A stretch of 20,251 nucleotides of DNA from Chromera velia (lineage: Eukaryota > Sar > Chromeraceae). The position numbers and the translations under genes are program-made. Positions 2,315 through 18,153 of this stretch are shown in pieces. The notes under the pieces are model-generated. The model had not been told where the DNA came from. It searched no databases and saw only the letters and a list, made by a program, of their open reading frames with translations. The DNA lies in NCBI GenBank assembly GCA_018398765.1, contig JAHBMJ010003506.1, positions 21,852-42,102 of the forward strand, in the 5' to 3' direction. Every line of letters begins with the position of its first letter. Position 1 is the first letter of the stretch.

Positions 2315-3425
2315 CATACTTGAGACTTTCCGTTGAGCTCAGCGCTACAGTTTCTCATGTGGTTGAGGGTCGTCAATTCTTTTGAGGCATCGAGAGTGTT
2401 CTCCATCGTTCGTTTTGGAACTTCTCTGACTGCCCCTCACCCTCACCCTTTGCATCACCCTTTCCCCTTTTCGTTCTACAATCCGCGGTGATGACGGCAT
2501 AGACAGCACGATTCTGTTCTGCGGTGCCGTTTGTTTATTCCGCATCTGTACGGTTCCCTGCCCACGTGTCTTTCTGGTACCTGTCTCCCTTCTGTGATCC
2601 TGCAGACTGGCACGTGAGATGGCGGCTGGAGGGGGACAGCCTCTCGGGAGAGTGGAGTCGGTCGTCTATTTCGACAAGCCTGTGGAGAAGGAGTACAAGT
2701 CAGTTCGCATGGGAAGGAAATCAGAAGACCGAAATGGAACCGGAAAACCTTTTGCTGTGTGTCTCGCAAACTTTGTTTTTCTTCCATGTATGTGAACGCA
2801 CTTCTTGAAGCAATTCAACGGAGTCATGTACAGTTGCGTGCGCATCTGCTTGATTGTGCCTCTATTTTCCTTCCTTCATGTCTGCAGAATGGGCGGCCTG
2901 TCGAAGTTCATGAACCTGGTCTTCGAGCGCATGTGCGGGAAGTGCTGGCGGTCCTGTAAGAGGAAGTGCTGCCCGTGCCACTGCTACGAGAGGTGCTGCC
3001 CCTGTGTGTGCAAAGCCCCGAAAGACCCGATCGACGAGGAGACGCGCATGTACTCTGATGGCCTTCCTGAGGGGTACTGCTGCTGCTGTCTGTGCACGAA
3101 GGGATGCCGAGACAATGAAGGGTGCAAGAAGAGCGCGGGAAGCTGCGGAGTGTGCTGCGGCCGCTCCTGTCCCTGCTGCTGTTGGCCCTGCTGTTGGCAC
3201 ATGCGCAGACCTGTAACGTCAGTTTGAATGAGTGCATGGAGAAACGAAGGATACGTCTGAATTCGGTGCTTCTGAAAATGTGTGGCTGTGTGTGTTTAGC
3301 CTTCTTTGTTGCGTCTGTTCGGTTCTGACGCGGGCTCCTTTGACTTTCTCTGCGCTGTTTTTTTCGGTCTCCAGTGTGTTCTTTGGCTCCTTTTGGCGTC
3401 CTTCTTGGAAAGGGATTGTACCTTC

Positions 3426-8953: not shown

Positions 8954-11158
8954 TCAAGGAGGAAAAGAGGAGACCTGCTTGCACTCATGGCAGTATCGAC
9001 GGTCCTTTCGGTGAACACAGAAGGCCCCCCCTCCGCAGTCCTTGCAGAAGTAGCGATGCTTTCCGTGCTCACATACGCTCTTCCCGCCACATTCCTTGCA
9101 CTGCGAGCGAATGCGACCGTGCTCACAAATACTCCTCCCGCCACAATCCTTGCAACGAGAGCGAATGCGGTCGTGCTCACAAACACCCTTCCCGCCACAT
9201 TCCTTGCACCCAAAGCGCTGCCGACCGTGCTCACAAATACTCTTCCCACCACAATCCTTGCACCTGTGGCGCCGTCGACCGTGCTCACATACACTCTTCC
9301 CTCCGCACTCTTTGCACTCAGAGCGCTGCCGACCGTGCTCACATATGCTCTTCCCTCCGCACTCTTTCCATTGAGAGCGCCTGCGACCGTGCTCGCATAT
9401 GCTCGTCCCTCCGCACTCTTTGCATTCAGAGCGCCTGCGACCATGCTCACAAATACCCTTCCCGCCACATTCCTTGCAGTGAAAGCGCTGCCGACCGTGC
9501 TCACAGATGCTCTTCCCCCCGCACTCCTTGCATCTGCTGCGAATCCGTCCGTGCAGACAGAAGGCCCCTCCTCCGCACTCCTTGCACTGAGAGCGAACGC
9601 GGCCGTGCTCACAGATGCCCTTCCCGCCACATTCCCTGCACTGAAAGCGCTCCCGGCCGTGCTCACAAATACTCTTCCCGCCACATTCCTTGCATCGAGA
9701 GTGCTGTCGACCGTGCTCACAGATGCTCTTCCCCCCGCACTCCTTGCACCTTTGTCGCTCCCGACCGTGCTCACAAACGCCCTTCCCTCCGCACTCCTTG
9801 CATCGGCAGCGCTTCCGACCATGCTCACAAATACTCTTCCCACCACATTCCTTGCAGAGAGAGCAGTTTCGGCCGTGCTCAGAAATGCTCTTCCCACCAC
9901 AATTCTTGTAGTGAGAGCGAATTCGGCCATGCTCACAAATACTCTTCCCTCCACACTCCTTACACTGCGAGCGAATGCGACCGTGCTCACAAACGCTCCC
10001 CCCTCCGCACTCCTTGCAGTGAGAACGAACCCGTCCATGCAAGCAGAGAATCTGCCCGTGGCGGTTCCTCTTCCCCCCCCCCCCATCCCCCCCTCGATGA
10101 TCATTCTCGGACGCCACCACTTTCCCTCCAGCGATCAGATCACCCCTCCCTCTACACAACTCAGAAGAGAGAGGGGCAGAGTCCGAAAGAGAAACAGTCA
10201 ACCGACGCTGCTTCTCTTCCCGCAAGAAAGTGCTGCCCCCCCCACTCTCTCTTGAAGCAACCCCCCGCCTCTCACCGGGACAGCCAGAGACCTCATCACA
10301 CTCGTCAGCCTGTATCTGACCTAGGTCACTCTCTGAGCGAAGACGCTTCACGGCAAACGTGTCCGCATGCCGTCGCTCCTCTTTCTCCACTTTGGTGGAT
10401 AGGAATGGGGGGCGTTGAAGGACTTTTTGCTCTGAGGAAGTGGCACGGGAGACAGCCGACTGGATGCTCGAGGTGTCATGACTGTCTGAATCATTGGCTG
10501 GTTTTACAATTCTGGAATTCGTTTGTTTCCTCCCCTGTGAGGAATCCGGACACGCAATCTCTGACGGGCGGGCAGACAGGTCATCATGCTGCGGGTTTTC
10601 CGTCTGTCTATTCGTTGGCAGAGGGAGAAAAACGAGCTGCACACTCTCAGGGACCCCCCATTCCACCGAAATCCCAACCACCTCCCTCTCCTGCCCCTCT
10701 CCTCCCTCTGCACCGACATGGATTGTGTTGACACCCCTCTCTCCGACCGAAGTGCAGTCAGAGAGAGGAGGCGCACTAACGAGATGCACGATACGGAAGT
10801 CCCCCCCCCTCAGCGGCTCAAGACACATGAGGTTACCAGGATGTGAAACCTCAGTCTCTTCGTCATCGTTCGGAATCGCAAACAGTCGAAACTTCAATTC
10901 TGACACCCCCATACCCCCGCACTCCCCCCCCGTCCCCACCCCATTCACCGCATCTCCAGAGACACCCATCGTGGACTCTGGGAGATTCACCTCCACCTCA
11001 CTCGACACCCACCAAGGACGCCCACACGGTACAGGGGCGAGAGACAACGCACCAGCCAATTCCCACCCACCCAGCTCAGCACATTCTCCCACCACCACAA
11101 CGCGTTGATTCTCTCGCACCTCCGGGCAATGCGCAATGAAGGCGATGAACCCCTTCAT
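8954..11158 (-). CDS. CBM20-like starch-binding domain protein with 20 Cys/His tandem repeats
   Basis: One open frame of 734 codons, ATG at 11156-11158 and TGA at 8954-8956. Residues 1 to about 130 resemble a CBM20 starch-binding domain: GFIAFIAHCPEVRENQRVVV, then GECAELGGWELAGALSL, PWWVSSEVEVNLP and LKFRLFAIPND, with W32, W49 and W50 as possible sugar-stacking residues. The usual late W-E-x-N site is not evident. Residues 131-371 are a polar, Gly/Ser/Glu-rich linker. Residues 372-726 are 20 repeats of 18 residues, consensus CEHGRxRxxCKECGGKSI, a C-X-H-X6-C-X2-C pattern fit to bind zinc. The tail is KQVSSFPP. No signal peptide or membrane helix is seen. CBM20 suggests contact with starch or glycogen; the repeats suggest nucleic-acid or protein binding (inference). 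The ATG is the natural start because the CBM20 fold begins right after it. The frame crosses long G tracts (10073-10084 and 10801-10809 on the complement), so assembly errors there could matter. Confidence 0.8.
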   Translation of the reverse strand: MKGFIAFIAHCPEVRENQRVVVVGECAELGGWELAGALSLAPVPCGRPWWVSSEVEVNLPESTMGVSGDAVNGVGTGGECGGMGVSELKFRLFAIPNDDEETEVSHPGNLMCLEPLRGGDFRIVHLVSAPPLSDCTSVGERGVNTIHVGAEGGEGQEREVVGISVEWGVPESVQLVFLPLPTNRQTENPQHDDLSARPSEIACPDSSQGRKQTNSRIVKPANDSDSHDTSSIQSAVSRATSSEQKVLQRPPFLSTKVEKEERRHADTFAVKRLRSESDLGQIQADECDEVSGCPGERRGVASRESGGGSTFLREEKQRRLTVSLSDSAPLSSELCRGRGDLIAGGKVVASENDHRGGDGGGGKRNRHGQILCLHGRVRSHCKECGGGSVCEHGRIRSQCKECGGKSICEHGRIRSHYKNCGGKSISEHGRNCSLCKECGGKSICEHGRKRCRCKECGGKGVCEHGRERQRCKECGGKSICEHGRQHSRCKECGGKSICEHGRERFQCRECGGKGICEHGRVRSQCKECGGGAFCLHGRIRSRCKECGGKSICEHGRQRFHCKECGGKGICEHGRRRSECKECGGTSICEHGRRRSQWKECGGKSICEHGRQRSECKECGGKSVCEHGRRRHRCKDCGGKSICEHGRQRFGCKECGGKGVCEHDRIRSRCKDCGGRSICEHGRIRSQCKECGGKSVCEHGKHRYFCKDCGGGAFCVHRKDRRYCHECKQVSSFPP
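8981..10045 (-). repeat. 54-bp coding tandem repeat, 20 units
   Basis: Twenty in-frame units of exactly 18 codons encode the Cys/His modules. There are no indels between units. Deviants: unit 3 (first Cys of CxxC is Tyr), unit 4 (leading Cys is Ser, with a new Cys at position 7), unit 13 (first Cys of CxxC is Trp), unit 17 (HGR is HDR) and units 19-20 (HGK and HRK). Units 9 and 19 both end in GGGAF instead of GGKSI, exactly ten units apart. Confidence 0.93.
10790..11158 (-). other. CBM20-like domain region
   Basis: The first ~120 residues of the repeat protein. The diagnostic part is VVVVGECAELGGWELAGAL, which matches the 'hhVGxxxELGxWxxxxAhxL' signature of family 20 modules, followed by WW and a VNLP strand, then a KFRLF strand. 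The CBM20 assignment is from pattern recognition and needs a profile search. Confidence 0.7.
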
Positions 11159-12226
11159 TGTGCCGATGCAGATAGGTAGACGGTTTCAATGTCAGGAAAT
11201 GAGTGTCAAGAAGGAGCAAGGCTTCCTGCGGCCTCGTTTGATTTGACGATCACCTGCACACATTCGCAAACTCAGAAACTTGAGAAAGCTCTCTACGCAA
11301 TCAAAACAGTTGCCAAGAAGGAAAATAATGAACTTGATGCCAAAGGATAGAACAGGAGAGAACAGACTCACCACAGGTGCCTCGATCAAATTCAACTTGA
11401 AGCTGGGAAGGCAACAGCCCGATCACCGACTGTTGGCAGCAGGACCGACGACAAAAACTGTCAGACTTCTGGCTCTCTTCTATGTACACGACCTCAAAGC
11501 ACGACGAATCGTGCACCGTCGCAGGAAGTATGGGTGGACAGGTCCTGTCCGTCCCTGGCCAAAGCAGTTCGCGATCGACCAGCCTGCTGTCTCGGTGTTC
11601 AATTCTCAGTCTGAATCTCAGACCGTCTCTCTGATTCTTGTGCTTCGAAATGATTCTCCAAGGAGGCACTCACGACTCCTTCTAGATATATATATCTGGT
11701 GGACACTCAATTCTACTTTGATCCGACGATCATTGGGAAATGTTCGAAGGCAGAGGAACTGCAAGGAAGGTCAAACGTACATAAACTTACCATACCGCGC
11801 CTCGTACGCTCGCGATGCCATTGCACACTGGCTCTGTTGTTGGAGGAATTTGGAGGATGTGTGCGGTACGTTATTCTGTGCGTGAACCTTACATTCTTAT
11901 ATTTCATGCCAGATTTCCTGTTTCTATACTGTCGTAAAAAAAAAAAACAGGCGCTTTGTATCGAAAAAGCGTGAAAAGAACATGAATTTAAGGCAGTAAA
12001 ACGTTAAAAATGTGGTCTCTTCACACTATTTCATGTAAATAATCGATGAAGTCATCCATTTTGCTAAATGCGTAGTGGTTACTAGTGCTTAGTTAGCTGC
12101 TCTGACAGCTGAAGTAAGCCTAAAACTAAGTTCAAATTCTATTGTCAAACAAGGCTACCAGCAATATATGCCTCTTCTACATATTGGAGTCATAATAATA
12201 ATTAGACCGTAAAGAGTATCCGGAAC
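11159..12226. other. Upstream flank of the repeat gene; possible 5'UTR intron
   Basis: No coding region is supported. On the minus strand a donor-like GTG|GTGAGT (intron first base 11371) and an acceptor TGTGTGCAG (last base 11254) would define a 118-bp intron before the ATG at 11158. Joining them gives no continuous coding frame, so it would be a 5'UTR intron. From about 11930 to 12226 the sequence is AT-rich with a 13-base A run. Confidence 0.45.
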
Positions 12227-12231: not shown

Positions 12232-12459
12232 TATAAGGAATTCAGATGTTAGAACAGAGTTCGGGGAGGAGAGGATGAATGAATGCGCCTCTCCTTGAAT
12301 AAGTCAATATGGATCGATCAGTTTCTCCTCCATGGTGCATGCACAGTTTGTAGTCTTGCAGATTTGCATACCTTCTAGCATGCTGAGCCCAGGCTGAAGT
12401 CCTTGGGACTGCGGCCGTAAAAAGCCGGCGTCAATCGACCCCGGACGCAATCTCCAACA
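12232..12459 (-). repeat. 3' LTR (228 bp)
   Basis: On the element strand it begins TGTTGGAGATTGCG, the classic copia LTR start, and ends TTCCTTATA. It aligns without gaps to 17921-18148. It ends in TA rather than the common CA; the target duplication supports this end over the inner TAACA at 12247. Confidence 0.93.
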
Positions 12460-12470
12460 ATCACCCCCTG
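12460..12470 (-). promoter_or_regulatory. Polypurine tract
   Basis: CAGGGGGTGAT on the element strand lies directly before the 3' LTR start TGTTGG. This is the usual place and composition for the primer of plus-strand DNA synthesis in copia elements. Confidence 0.8.
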
Positions 12471-12572
12471 ACTTGAACATTCACAGGAGAGTCACCCCTT
12501 TTCTTAGCTTTCGATCGACATGTCTTTGCGAAATCTACCATTCCTCTCTTTACATGTACTTCCTTCTTCGCT

Positions 12573-13249
12573 TCAACCTGAGGCGCTTGACTCCCTCTCT
12601 CCTTTTCCAACTTGTACTTCGTGTGTATTCATGTGTCTGTCTGCCCACTGCCGATTAGTAAAAACCCAAAGCACCCGTGCCTTCAACGCTCTCAGCTCCT
12701 GCTGCACATACTTCAACAATCCATCCATCCGAGGCTCTTGCTTCGAATATCCACTCTCCAATTGCTCCATGAGAGGAGCGCTGTCTGTATAAATCTCTAC
12801 TTCCAGCGGCTTCATCCACAACGCCTCTGCAAGACGCTTCCATTGAAAAGATTGTTTCACATCATCTACAAGCGCACAAAGCTCAGCAGAGGTCGAAGAA
12901 ATCAGCTTTCTTTTGATTTGTTTGCTCTTCCATGCCACCAGATTCGTTCTTCTCATTTCCTCAATCTTTTCCTTCTTGTCAACCAAGTAAGCCTCAAAGC
13001 CCCTTCTTCCTTCATAACGGGAAAGAGAATACGCAGCATCCACAAACAAAGCAAGCTTTGGATCAATCACGCCCTCAAAGCGCAAACTGTCGTTCTTTTC
13101 ATGAGCTCTGATGAGGGCAAGCAAAGCAGCAACAAGCTTCGAACCAGTCGGGCAGGAACTATAACGAGACAACTCACTGAAAACAAAAGTAAGATCGGCA
13201 GACGTCCGACACACCCAACCATCACTTTCATCATCACCACAACCAGGTC
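12573..13249 (-). pseudogene. RNase H domain of copia Pol
   Basis: Ty1-type RNase H: LALFVDAAYS (first Asp), SSTSAELCALVDD (Glu) and VEIYTDSAPLMEQL (second Asp), then WVFTNRQWADRHMN in place of the usual ADxLTK end. The segment itself has no stop until TGA at 12573-12575, but a one-base deletion (or a two-base insertion) near 13250 puts it out of frame with reverse transcriptase. Confidence 0.88.
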
Positions 13250-14160
13250 TTCTTCTTTCTTTTCTTCCTTCTTTTCATTCAGCATATCAGGGGAAGGAGA
13301 CTTGCGAGGCAAATCGTCTGTCTGAATAGGAATGGACTTCAAGTATACCTCCTAGCTGATCTCAAACCCGCTTTCATTCTTTCTTACCTCCAAACCCATG
13401 TAGCCCATTTCATCCCCCGCAGAGAGAATTTCTGGCTCATCTATCTTCAAACGCTGTCTCAAAGGTTCAAAGTCACGAGCAGGGTTAGCAAAGAAAATGA
13501 GCAAATCATCAATGTGAACAGCCATCACTGCTTTCACCTTCTTCTCTTCATCCTTCAACACAAAGATGCTCTCAACGATTTCCTCACATCCTTCTTCTGC
13601 TGCAATCCGTTTGAAATGCTTTCCATACAGACGAGGGGCATCTTTCAATCCATACATGGCTCTCTCTAGCTGACCGATAACTCTAGGTGCGAATCCTTCT
13701 GCGGAATGCGTCGGGACGCGTCCTGGCAGCTGCACAAACACCTCATCATGAATGGATGCAGTCAGAAACGCAGTGCGCATATCTGATTTACCGATCGTCT
13801 ACCCCTGACTAGATGCAAACGTAAAGCAAACCAAAAGAGCCCACTAAGCAGCTGTCCCACTGTACGTCTCAACGTTCTTTCGGTCATCTTGAAATCCTTT
13901 ACACACAAGATGGGCTTTCGGCTTTCTCTCTTTCCCTTTCATCTTCCATATGAGCACCCATCTGGTTTTGATTGCTCTTCTCTTCTGTAGTATTCTTACT
14001 CTGTTTATTTTCAACACTTTATTCTCCTCAAAGCTTTTCAATTCCCCTTGCATCGCTTCATCAAAGAGGCCTTTCTCTACTTCTTTTTCCTTTGCATCGA
14101 TGTGCCCCTTCCTTGGGTTCACATGCTTCATCATCTGGTCGACTACTTTCTTATCCACCA
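13250..14160 (-). pseudogene. Reverse transcriptase domain of copia Pol
   Basis: RVT_2-type: KTRWVLIWKMKG, KAHLVCKGFQ, then KSDMRTAFL (the copia 'D-V-K-T-A-F-L' motif), ERAMYGLKDAPRLYGKHF, AVHIDDLLIFF (HIDD at 13505-13516 in place of the common YVDD), and GYMGLEVRKNESGFEIS. Three TAG codons interrupt it, at 13846, 13801 and 13354. The last falls where copia proteins have Gln (IS-Q-x-x-Y) and the middle one where they usually have Trp. Confidence 0.92.
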
Positions 14161-14896
14161 CAAGTCTCTGTGGCGCCTTCCTGAATCTATTTCTTTCTCT
14201 CCTCACTTTCTTCCTTTCACCCTCCTTACTATCGTCTTGTGCTCCCTGCACCCTCTTCCCTTCCTGTGCTCCCTGCACTTTCTTATTATCCTGTGTTTCC
14301 TGCACTCCCTCCGTTTCTTTGCTGCCTTGCTGCTCTCCTTCACGTGCAAGAAAGCTAGCAAAGGCTGTGGCCCCCCCAGACTCCCCAAGCAAGTTGAGGC
14401 TAAACAATGAATCGTCATCTAGAATGTCTGGCAGGACGACTTCTCCTTCTCCCTCTTTTTCTGCTGGCTGCGCTGCCTGAACAGGTTCGCGACCCTACCC
14501 TGACTGCTTTTCCTTTTCCTCTCTACCCCCCACCCCCTACTGCTGACTTCGCAACTCCAGATGGCCTGCCTCAAGTTGAGAGCCTGCTGCAAATGAAGGA
14601 GGGAAAGGGACAGGTACAGAAACAAAAGACACAGACTCTCCCACAACATGATTCAGCTGCCTGACGGCCGCTGACGGAACAGAGTCGGGAAAGATTGCCT
14701 GCGACTTGGAGGAAGAGACAACAGCTTCAAGGTCCGCACCCCCTGCAGCAAGAACATCGACTTCTCTATCTTCATCGACATCGAAATCGGAAAAACGATC
14801 AACATCGTCAGCAGATGCAGCTGCTGACTCAGACATTCCATTCAAAAAGTCAGAAGACACATTCAAACCATACTATTCAATCAAAGACACAGGACT
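14161..14896 (-). pseudogene. Integrase-RT linker of copia Pol
   Basis: A polar, low-complexity linker joins integrase to reverse transcriptase in the main frame. It has acidic stretches (DVDRFSDFDVDEDREVDV, and VVLPDILDDDSL) and a repeated EGVQETQDNKKVQGAQEGK-type segment. TAG codons at 14875, 14539 and 14497 interrupt it. No catalytic motif is expected here. Confidence 0.7.
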
Positions 14897-15916
14897 CTAT
14901 CCCTTCCCACTGTCTGTCTTCACAAGAACACACATGACAAAGTCGCTTTCGACTCCACCAAAGAACCCTTCCTTTCCCCTGACAGGCACAGCAGAAGAGG
15001 GAATCGGATGAGGGTCAGTCACAAGAATACGATCACCGACAGAGATGAGAGAAATGAGACGAGCAGCCTCAACACCAAACACAGACGCATTGGGCGACTT
15101 ACCCATCGCAGACGAAACACATTCATTCAAAGAATCAATCACACCACTCAACAACCACTTCGCACAATATTTTGGTAAATCCAAATCCGTAAACAACTTC
15201 CAGAGCAATCTTTTTACTGTACGATTCATTCTCTCTACTTGCGCTTGAGACTGAGGAGTGTAGATGCTTCCTTTCTTATGAAAGATGGACTCCTGATCAC
15301 ACACATACTCGTAGTGTCCCTTCTTTTCACCCACAAATTCTCTTCCGTTGTCAGTGCAAACCGTTGCAGGCTTTCCTTTGACTTTCAGCTTCTCATCCAG
15401 TCTCTCCTTTTGAAAGCAGAACCATGCCAGAAATAAAACGAGTTACAGCATCGACAATCAAAGACACAGGGGTACCACCAGGTAAAAACATGACATCCTA
15501 ATAAATGACTTCATTGAATTCCTTTGCTTGCATGCCTTCCTGGCTCTCCTGAGGAATACGATGCATCACAGCATTCACATGCTTGCACTGTCTGCACATA
15601 TGCCTCACTTGATCACACGCCTCTCTGCTCATACGCGACATAATGCCTTTCTCTTTCATTGTTTTATACAGTCGCACACCACTTATGCCACATCAAAACC
15701 TCCCTCGCACTCATCTGACCTTCAGAAGGGAAGCTCACCTTCCGCGATCGATGCGCACCTAACCGAATTGGCGGTCGCTCCTGCGGGGCCCCCTTCTGAC
15801 CTCCGTGCTGCAAAAACGCCCACTCACGTATAAGAGGTCTATCCTTCCTATCTACGTTCAAACACACACGAAGGGGGCCACGCTTCACTGCCAGACTCTT
15901 TGACTGCACCCCCCCC
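14897..15916 (-). pseudogene. Integrase domain of copia Pol
   Basis: An N-terminal zinc-binding part is seen (LMWHKW, then RHMCRQCKH), preceded by a pre-integrase segment. The DDE catalytic triad is present: Asp in LIVDAVTRF (15450-15452), Asp in CTDNGREF (15350-15352) and Glu in QVERMNRTV (15233-15235), with 38 residues between the second Asp and the Glu. Three single-base shifts and a TAG at 15500 split it, so no intact enzyme can be made. Confidence 0.9.
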
Positions 15917-16465
15917 ATGCACACTCAAAACCAGAACGCCTTCCTCCTCTTTTATACGCGCACAAAAACTGCTACCCCCTTTTTTAGGGAGCTCCACCCA
16001 GAATGGCTCACGCACTTTCTGCAAGCGGAGACTATGCACACTCACAAAAAAGACTGGCACAGACCGAGAGAAAGCTCCATCCAAACGTGCCGTCCTCCTA
16101 CCTCCATCCATACACTCGACTCCAGGGAGATCCACAGTCACGTCGCTCTCTACTCGTGCGACGTCTCCTTCAACCCCCACAAACTCAGTAACACTGTCTG
16201 TCTCCCTCACCTCAACTACACAGGACTCGACGTCTCTGCCAAAGAAATGCCGGCTGTATCCAAAATCAACCACCGGCTTCTTCACCACGCATTTCATTCC
16301 ACCCCGGGGCCCTCTCGCTCCACCTGTACGCCCTTTAGCGTGTGGTCGCAGTTTTATCACGTCCTTCCCGGGACGGCTCTCCCCCTCTTCTTCAGCAAGC
16401 AACGTAAAGCGATTGGAAACCTGTACGTCGGGTGAATACGCTGCACTCTGCACCCCCGAGTGTGG
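15917..16465 (-). pseudogene. Aspartic protease region of copia Pol
   Basis: KPVVDFGYSRHFFGRD aligns with the copia protease active site 'D-S/T-G-A-S-x-H'. Here the motif is D-F-G (16259-16267), so the essential Ser/Thr is lost; one C-to-T change in a Ser codon would explain it. The downstream part leads into the pre-integrase segment, with a frame change at the G8 run. Confidence 0.75.
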
Positions 16466-17878
16466 TTATCTCCCTCCCTGTCCCCCAGAGGAGGACGAGG
16501 AAAACTGCTGCTGCTGGCTTCTGTTGGGATCTTGGCTGGGGGGAGGGGGAACCCAAGGGCAACGCTCGATTCTAGGCTGCCCTGCACGCTTGCGCGCACA
16601 GTTCTTCTTAAAGTGGGTCATGCCCTGGCACCACCAGCACCTCTTCGGTCCCCACGGCTGCTGCTGCTGCTGCTGCTGTTGAGGGGGAGACTGCTGGGAG
16701 GAGTGCTGACTGTTCTGTCTGTTCCCCTGATTTCTGAATCCACCAGATCCCCGACCCCGTCTTTGCTGGCCTCTGAAGGCTCTCTCTCTGCCCCCACTCT
16801 GCCTCTGTCTCGCCTTAATCTCTGCATCCCGATTAAAGGACGTGAACCACTCGAGCTCCTTCTTCAGAGTGGCATAGTCAATCTGTCCGAGATCCAGCTG
16901 CCCCCCCAATCTAAGAAGTTTCGATCTGAGGGAGTTGATGAGCTTCATACGCTGGTTGTCCGTGAGGGCGTTGGCGATCATGATGACCTTGGCGGGATCT
17001 GCGATCTCCCACTCCGCGTTGTCAGAATCGAGGAGGAGATCCTCGAGTCTCTGGTCGATCTTCGCGAATGACAGCACTACACCGCTTGGGATGACGACAC
17101 GACTGTTCTGATCACGGTGGTCGAGGAGCCATGGGAAGACCTGCACACGCTCCTGCACAGCTAGCTACATCGCCAGCAGGGTCGAGGAATACTCCTGCTC
17201 CATCTTCTCTATAATATCCTCAGGGTTCACCCGCTTCCATCTCCATCTCCTCACATGAGTCACATCTCTCCTGAAGGCCCGAGTATCACTTCCTGCCTTG
17301 TTCAGCGCGACGATGATGTTTGATCTCTACTCCTCCGTCGACCGGAAGTGTTTCCTCTGCAGGTGCACATTGGAGAACTCCCCCCACTGCGATGCAAAGT
17401 CGACAATCTCCTTCTTTCCACCGAACTTTAGGCAGGCGGTCAGGTCCACTTTCTTCGACTGCTTCGATGATCTCTTCTTCCTGCATGTGGAACCCACTCT
17501 CTGAGCTGCAGAGTGGCGGGAAGACGCATCGGAAAATCCACTCACATCTGACGAGTTAGAGTGGGAGGGAGATGGGTCCTTGTCCGAGAAGAAAGCCACA
17601 GCGTCGAAAGGCTTTCGGACTTTCTAAGCCTGAACGGCTCTAGGCGCAAACAGAGAAACAGGGGCAATTCTTTCTTTCTTCTCCACCACTGCGGCACTGG
17701 TTCGACTGGGTGGAATCCATCTATCTAACGAGTCTTCTACTCTCTCCTCCCGCTGGCCTGGAGGCGCAGCATCTCTTCGATCGAACTCTGCACTGAGTCT
17801 GGATACTTCAGCGCTGATCGGTTCAAGGGCGTCATTGAGTAAGCCCCTGAAAAAGCTTTTCATGTCTTCAAAGTTCAT
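16466..17878 (-). pseudogene. Gag of copia element, with zinc knuckle
   Basis: It starts MNFEDMKSFFRGLLNDALEP just inside the 5' LTR. The capsid-like central part has KVIMIANALTDNQRMKLINS and LKKELEWFTSFN. It ends with an Arg/Gly/Gln-rich region, a run of eight Gln and a CCHC zinc knuckle, CWWCQGMTHFKKNC (16598-16639), that binds RNA. Three TAG codons lie inside it. The TAA at 16466-16468 sits at the gag/protease boundary in the same frame as pol, so it may be an original gag terminator rather than decay. Confidence 0.88.
16598..16639 (-). other. CCHC zinc knuckle (C-X2-C-X4-H-X4-C)
   Basis: All four metal ligands are intact in CWWCQGMTHFKKNC. It follows a CAG-rich stretch encoding poly-Gln (about 16657-16680). 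This is the nucleocapsid motif that packages element RNA. Confidence 0.93.
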
Positions 17879-17900
17879 TTTAACAACAAAGTGGCAACAA

Positions 17901-17919
17901 ATCAGTCTGACACACTGAT
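17901..17919. repeat. Hairpin at the expected primer-binding position
   Basis: ATCAGT and ACTGAT are perfect inverted arms around a 7-base loop, beginning one base inside the 5' LTR. No TGG complementary to a tRNA 3'-CCA end is found here, so the priming tRNA is not identifiable. Confidence 0.55.
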
Positions 17920-17920
17920 C

Positions 17921-18148
17921 TATAAGGAATTCACGTGTTAGAACAGAGTTCGGAGAGGAGAGGCTGAGCGAATGCGCCTCTCCTTGAATAAGTCAATGTG
18001 GATCGATTAGTTTCTCCTATACGGTGCATGCACAGTTTGTAGTGTTGCAGATTTGCATAGCTTGTAGCGCGCTGAGCCCAGGCTGAAGTCCCTGGGACCG
18101 CGGCCATGAAAGGCCGGCGTCAATCAACCCCGGACGCAATCTCCAACA
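17921..18148 (-). repeat. 5' LTR (228 bp)
   Basis: It begins TGTTGGAGATTGCG on the element strand and ends TTCCTTATA next to the internal region. It contains the element promoter, but no clear TATA box was chosen; TATA occurs near 18029. An inverted repeat with a 9-bp stem lies at 17956-17984. Confidence 0.93.
17956..17984. repeat. Inverted repeat inside the LTR
   Basis: AGGAGAGGC and GCCTCTCCT are perfect arms of 9 bp with an 11-base loop. The other LTR keeps an 8-bp stem at 12267-12295 despite about 10% divergence. It may be a structure in the element RNA. Confidence 0.7.
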
Positions 18149-18153
18149 ATAAA
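18149..18153. repeat. Target site duplication, right copy (ATAAA)
   Basis: Matches 12227-12231 and directly follows the 5' LTR of the minus-strand element. Confidence 0.85.

Follow-up and report, generated by a model that had tools for sequence, protein, structure and literature searches.

Short Cys/His repeat arrays of Chromera velia, joined to CBM20-like regions or HNH nuclease domains, as candidate modular nucleic-acid-binding domains

Results

The array gene and its surroundings

The window, by which we mean the whole stretch of 20,251 nucleotides of Chromera velia DNA that was analysed, carries on its minus strand an open frame of 734 residues whose C-terminal half is an array of short Cys/His repeats. 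Related open frames exist elsewhere in the genome. The features of the locus are listed in Table 1. The earlier note had described 20 units of 18 residues at 8981-10045 without giving a strand; the number and length of the units were correct, and the extent was corrected to 8966-10045 on the minus strand. The CBM20-like region at the N-terminus was absent from that description.

Table 1. Coordinates of the array gene and of adjoining features in the window
Feature	Coordinates	Strand	Remarks
Open frame, 734 residues, ATG to TGA	8954..11158	-	CBM20-like region, linker, 20-unit Cys/His array and short tail
CBM20-like N-terminal region, residues 1-130	10769..11158	-	Pfam match at residues 12-63
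Linker from CBM20-like region to array	10046..10768	-	
KRLR in the linker	10337..10348	-	Nuclear-localisation-like K-K/R-x-K/R motif
KRNR directly N-terminal of the array	10061..10072	-	Basic motif that recurs in paralogues
Array, 20 units of 18 residues	8966..10045	-	CxHGRxRxxCKECGGxxI; 17 units with all four candidate ligands
Unit 3	9884..9937	-	C10 replaced by Y
Unit 4	9830..9883	-	C1 replaced by S
Unit 13	9344..9397	-	C10 replaced by W
5' flank	11159..11743	.	80-84% DNA identity with five paralogous loci; similarity ends at 11664-11743
Ty1/copia-like LTR element, outside the array gene	12232..18150	-	LTRs at 12232-12461 and 17921-18150, 90% identical

The upstream similarity of the window gene to its paralogues stops where it does partly because the sampled paralogue stretches end there. 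Two of the five paralogous matches reach the end of the sampled stretch, and a third comes within 41 bases of it. The copia-like element has a reverse transcriptase match of 2.6e-10. Elsewhere in the window, exons with C2-domain matches at 581-2323 (Pfam 1.7e-7 and 0.14 for the first and second exon, respectively) may be part of an intron-containing ferlin-like gene. The Pfam scan gave no match for a Cys-rich frame at 2805-3227.

The 18-residue repeat

A 54-bp tandem repeat was detected in the window by TRF (score 828, 17.8 copies), and it encodes 20 uninterrupted periods of 18 residues. The ligand pattern C1-x-H3-x6-C10-x2-C13 is complete in 17 of the 20 units, so that the claim that each unit keeps its Cys and His residues stands for these and fails for units 3, 4 and 13, each of which lacks one ligand (C10 to Y, C1 to S and C10 to W, respectively). 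Across the six frames of the window there are 17 occurrences of the strict pattern C.H.{6}C..C, compared with a mean of 0.03 and a maximum of 1 in 30 two-base-block shuffles. The 360-residue array contains 59 Cys and 27 His, and the mean net charge per unit is +2.2 (774 units). The four conserved Cys/His suggest that each unit would bind about one zinc via C1, H3, C10 and C13.

The units, which read CxHx6CxxC, do not follow the C2H2 ligand pattern CxxC...HxxxH, and no zinc-finger match was found by Pfam inside the arrays that were scanned. Searches of Pfam, NCBIfam and PDB sequences returned sub-threshold matches to the unit only; from the PDB sequences there was one match (E 0.41). One PHROGs family matched, and its function is not annotated. 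AlphaFold2 models of four units were inconsistent in pLDDT (75, 44, 37, 35 and 32), so that they speak for neither a defined fold nor disorder, and the four-unit model had no match of note among PDB structures, one being found at E 9.1. A literature search that covered open-access papers, with subscription journals mostly outside it, found no paper on this repeat.

Positions at which the units vary

It had been claimed that variability is confined to positions 6, 8 and 9. Among the 17 complete window units, these three positions do hold the most residue types (8, 7 and 7, respectively), but the confinement was not borne out, as further types occur at positions 16 (5), 18 (4) and 2, 11 and 17 (3 each). 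A pooled set of 916 complete units was compiled from 65 reading frames in the window and 59 further sampled loci. In this set, the effective number of residues was 10.4 at position 9, 8.1 at position 6, 6.9 at position 8 and 5.8 at position 16, followed by 3.4 (position 17), 3.2 (18), 2.9 (2) and 2.4 (12); the four ligand positions score 1.0 by construction of the search pattern. The non-ligand positions 4, 5, 7, 11, 14 and 15 are under strong constraint. In statistics that ignore kinship, coupling was significant between positions 6, 8 and 9 (z 11-15) and also between others, such as 15-18 (z 18.5).

Nonsynonymous diversity between units was compared with the silent rate of the same array in 50 frames with at least eight clean units. 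It exceeded the silent rate at position 6 in 35 arrays, at position 9 in 21, at position 16 in 11, at position 8 in 4 and at positions 14 and 17 in one each, and at all other positions in none of the 50. These results support the layout of a constant scaffold with a few hypervariable positions that the earlier note had proposed, and equal variability at all non-Cys/His positions is rejected by the 916 units as well as by the 50 arrays. Of positions 6, 8 and 9, for which the earlier note had suggested a test of diversifying selection, 6 and 9 show diversification in many arrays and 8 in the few just given. The variable set is best stated as 6 and 9, then 16 and 8.

Silent sites are near saturation in most arrays, including that of the window, whose ratios to the silent rate are 1.22 at position 6 and 1.01 at position 9. 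Six arrays have a low silent rate (0.20-0.39), which indicates that their units have been homogenised. In these, positions 6 and 9 exceeded the silent rate in six of six arrays (median ratios 1.71 and 2.12), position 16 in three and positions 8 and 14 in one each; the six are non-independent and perhaps represent three lineages, since L026, L044 and L055 are sisters and L025 and L027 are sisters by their tails. Bases 1-2 of codons 6 and 9 were more diverse than base 3 in five of the six, the exception being L028. The 54-mers of L026 are near-constant apart from codons 6, 9 and 16 and the third base of codon 15. The sisters L026, L044 and L055 are 79-89% identical in the DNA before the array, and their strings of residues at positions 6 and 9 differ in both content and order. 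In the two HNH-fused arrays tested, L029 and L053, position 6 lay below the silent rate (0.27 and 0.50, respectively), and the ratios at position 9 were 0.82 and 0.80.

The CBM20-like region and the paralogue family

Six-frame searches of the genome (178 Mb, 4040 contigs), in which the best candidates only were scored, revealed at least 137 array-matching stretches at about 60 loci. The CBM20 match (PF00686) of the window protein scored 21.7 bits, just below the curated threshold of 23.3. Six of the eight CBM20-matching array paralogues pass this threshold (L019, 25.2; L028, 35.2; L037, 28.4; L064, 34.3; L069, 35.6; L072, 28.1), and two do not (L009, 19.5; L013, 17.9). CBM20 domains normally bind alpha-glucans. 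Two CBM20 subtypes were found, A, to which the window protein belongs, and B, each fused to an array; from their sequences, A has Leu at the site where B has the Trp of WEP. Purifying selection on the CBM20-A region is moderate, with a median dN/dS of 0.46 over 285 non-independent paralogue pairs (dS < 0.6). In the 25 closest paralogue pairs, the 100 residues after this region range from 0.36 to 4.78 in dN/dS.

Linker motifs of the form K-K/R-x-K/R were present in 17 of 17 A-type frames (2.6 expected by shuffling), 8 of 8 B-type frames (1.8 expected) and 26 of 38 other frames (5.8 expected). Many paralogues have KRRR in the linker, and the window protein has KRLR.

Many CBM20 genes are arranged head to head: 22 of 31 A-type N-termini have a CBM20 match on the opposite strand, with 1.45-2.9 kb between the matched starts (median 1.6 kb). 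All six partner stretches that were read (L028, L059, L068, L069, L070 and L072) are of the B type, and five have an array, the array part of L068 being N. The window gene is among the nine A-type genes without a partner, and the copia-like element sits where its divergent partner would be expected. When five B-type proteins were used as tblastn queries, a B-type N-terminus was detected neither in the window nor in the stretch just past it (L071), in which 1252 bases are N. The partner of the window gene may have been lost or moved. The N stretch of L071 is followed by exons that by eye resemble a casein-kinase-type protein kinase.

Nuclease fusions in the same genome

The window frame has no HNH domain by Pfam scan or by eye. 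The C-terminal domain of both L029 and L053 can be aligned with viral HNH domains and retains the core W-H-x-D-H, P, N, Q, W, N, K, which is invariant in 18 aligned sequences. A tblastn search with L053 matched 104 phage records; 39 of the 40 matches listed fall in the HNH part, and 7 of these 40 are annotated as HNH endonuclease or endonuclease VII. A genome search using the HNH domain by itself gave 124 matches in 72 clusters on 70 contigs, and 51 clusters had at least two matches.

Three further proteins (L164, L165 and L166) read as basic N-terminus, array, HNH, linker, array, HNH, and in the five proteins read an array lies directly N-terminal of all eight HNH domains. A genome search with the whole of L164, in which the best 50 of 745 candidates were scored, gave 147 pieces, 93 of them with an HNH block. 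Of these 93, 79 also hold about two or more units, and for 13 of the 14 others an array piece lies no more than 300 bases upstream; a fused piece was found at 49 of 49 places. Fusion was thus observed at 51 of the 72 HNH clusters (49 by this search, L029 and L053 by reading), the remaining 21 lying outside the sample, and these counts favour fused genes because the query was itself fused and the best 50 candidates were scored.

The first 40 residues of L164, L165 and L166 contain 9, 7 and 9 K/R and 0, 1 and 2 D/E, respectively. In this composition the three N-termini look like organelle presequences.

Arrays in viruses

In IMG/VR, an array-only query matched six viral contigs. In four of the six, the array frame runs into an HNH domain (two contigs) or an endonuclease VII-like motif (two), the endonuclease VII assignment being a motif reading. 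With fused proteins as queries, one of the two remaining contigs proved to contain a fused frame that is truncated at the contig end. These queries also gave a seventh contig, likewise truncated, in which one unit and an endonuclease VII-like motif are present. An array is the exception among the viral HNH relatives, being present at 5 loci, on 2 contigs, out of 81 at which an HNH-like frame was seen. The predicted structure of the nuclease domain of a viral homologue reached a pLDDT of about 90 or higher, and most of the best structural matches to it were HNH domains. The kinship with viral proteins that the earlier note mentioned for these repeats therefore holds in kind for viral contigs, and its reference to giant viruses goes beyond this evidence.

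In one viral contig (L074), the array-HNH gene is present twice as an inverted duplicate. In Synechococcus phage B23 (L163), a protein annotated as secretory antigen precursor covers 96% of the 327 window-array residues used as query at 24% identity.

Discussion

The basic units, the linker motifs, the diversified positions, the nuclease fusions and a weak C2H2 match behind one array suggest that the array is a nucleic-acid-binding domain of modular build, a reading that we consider probable though well short of assured. An array of this kind is expected to show a few positions above the silent rate on a constant scaffold, and positions 6 and 9 did so in every homogenised array. Fusion to domains acting on nucleic acid is likewise expected and was found in the genome and in viral contigs, the window protein itself being unfused. 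Because dozens of other genes of this genome, and some viruses, combine such repeats with domains that cut DNA, the repeats have the look of a modular DNA or RNA recognition system, and the HNH and endonuclease VII-like fusions lend indirect support to nucleic acid as the ligand. Several points speak against it: the inconsistent AlphaFold2 models, the link of CBM20 to glucans, the missing ligand in 3 of the 20 window units, position 6 not being diversified in the two HNH-fused arrays, and the strongest diversification coming from six related arrays.

In the proposed mechanism, each unit would fold around its zinc, and a constant basic surface of R5, R7 and K11 would face the sugar-phosphate backbone. 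The residues between H3 and C10, chiefly 6 and 9 and less so 8, together with 16, would select a base or short sequence. The attached domain would set the outcome, an HNH or endonuclease VII-like domain leading to cleavage of the target. The window protein, which has a CBM20-like region and no nuclease, would be a nuclear, non-cutting binder, such as a regulator or silencer. Its CBM20 region would sense a glucan or recruit a partner, and we place much less confidence in any specific role of this region than in nucleic-acid binding by the array.

In TALE and PPR arrays, the scaffold is nearly constant and about two residues per unit are code-like, and engineered fusions of TALE arrays with nucleases exist. 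The unit described here differs in being Cys/His-based and, at 18 residues, about half as long as a TALE repeat, a comparison made at the sequence level by Pfam scans alone. PRDM9 and KRAB C2H2 arrays are similar in that tandem zinc-type units are encoded as a coding minisatellite and form a diversified family. According to one study, variation in PRDM9 is mostly nonsynonymous at the base-contacting codons -1, 3 and 6 (PMC3890296); the homogenised arrays likewise diversify mainly at set codons, 6 and 9. Another states that many members of the KRAB zinc-finger family bind transposable elements (PMC7289599). However, the PRDM9 finger has 28 codons against 18 residues per unit here, the ligands are CxxC...HxxxH in PRDM9 and KRAB arrays and CxHx6CxxC here, the present arrays have no Pfam C2H2 match, and their partner domains are CBM20 and HNH. 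By analogy, the array's mode of action may resemble that of PRDM9, KRAB-finger or TALE arrays; none of the library matches places it in any of these groups.

The array-fused HNH domains align with those of phage and viral HNH and endonuclease VII-type (homing) endonucleases, among which F-CphI is described as a homing enzyme with an endonuclease VII motif (PMC6083498). Most of these enzymes have no array, and the window protein has no nuclease domain. In EsV-1-7 domains the ligands are spaced C-x4-C-x16-C-x2-H, unlike the CxHx6CxxC spacing and 18-residue period seen here, the two being compared by description only. EsV-1-7 proteins (IMM) of brown algae are similar in that their Cys-rich repeats are reported both from algae and from a large virus, with an expansion in a single host lineage (PMC12993054). 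With CBM20 starch-binding proteins, the window protein and its paralogues share the N-terminal region, but here it is joined to a Cys/His array and to no enzyme.

The arrays might instead bind proteins or peptides as a diversified repertoire for immune or self-recognition; CBM20 would then bind a glycan, and the genes arranged head to head would act as a receptor pair. The divergent CBM20 pairs and the diversification at set positions are compatible with this. A CBM20 domain also has a role in RNF213. The abstract of a study on the recognition of diverse pathogens by RNF213 contains the term CBM20 (PMC11549300). Against it stand the nuclease domains that follow the arrays in dozens of genes and in viral contigs, the basic character of the units and the nuclear look of the linker motifs, and we regard such a repertoire as improbable. 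Relaxed constraint, under which positions 6, 8, 9 and 16 would be solvent-exposed and free to drift, agrees with the ratios near 1 in most of the diverged arrays, including that of the window, and with the ratios below 1 at position 6 of the two HNH-fused arrays. It does not account for the excess at codons 6 and 9 in the homogenised arrays or for the greater diversity of codon bases 1-2 in all of them but L028; drift by itself would not be expected to raise diversity above the silent rate, although a mutational bias at codons 6 and 9 is possible, and we hold this explanation to be decidedly improbable.

Metallothionein-like metal storage or buffering, in which the Cys and His alone would matter and the rest would drift, fits the Cys/His content and the regular ligand spacing; it is very unlikely because strong constraint on positions 4, 5, 7, 11, 14 and 15 goes together with diversification at 6 and 9, and because it leaves no place for the nuclease fusions. 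Similarly slight is the chance that the family is a mobile or viral element whose array genes serve its replication or homing: the dispersed array loci, the HNH clusters and the array-HNH proteins of viral contigs point that way, but similarity around the window locus ends at differing places on both sides with no shared ends seen (in short flanks), and the CBM20 region is under purifying selection.

Returning to nucleic-acid binding, a more specific and tentative form of it, which we think possible but would not favour, is a naturally programmable zinc-repeat system in which 18-residue units read nucleic acid via positions 6 and 9. It would comprise dozens of array-HNH nucleases, often with two arrays and two HNH domains per chain, and dozens of nuclease-free CBM20-array binders, perhaps an arsenal against genomic parasites like that of the KRAB zinc fingers. 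If true, this would explain a large and so far undescribed gene family, and it would raise the question of why CBM20 is the partner. To our knowledge, modular arrays that can be read for nucleic-acid binding are rare, namely C2H2 fingers, TALE, PPR and PUF. The present family has a very short unit, two codons that diversify in a PRDM9-like manner and numerous naturally occurring fusions to nucleases, and a recognition code could therefore be tested directly by SELEX on natural arrays.

Array frames without a recognised CBM20 region also exist, such as those of L036 (45 units) and L062 (34 units). The array end of L036 has, behind the array, a weak C2H2 match (E 0.0025, below the cut-off) and a KKKSKV tail.
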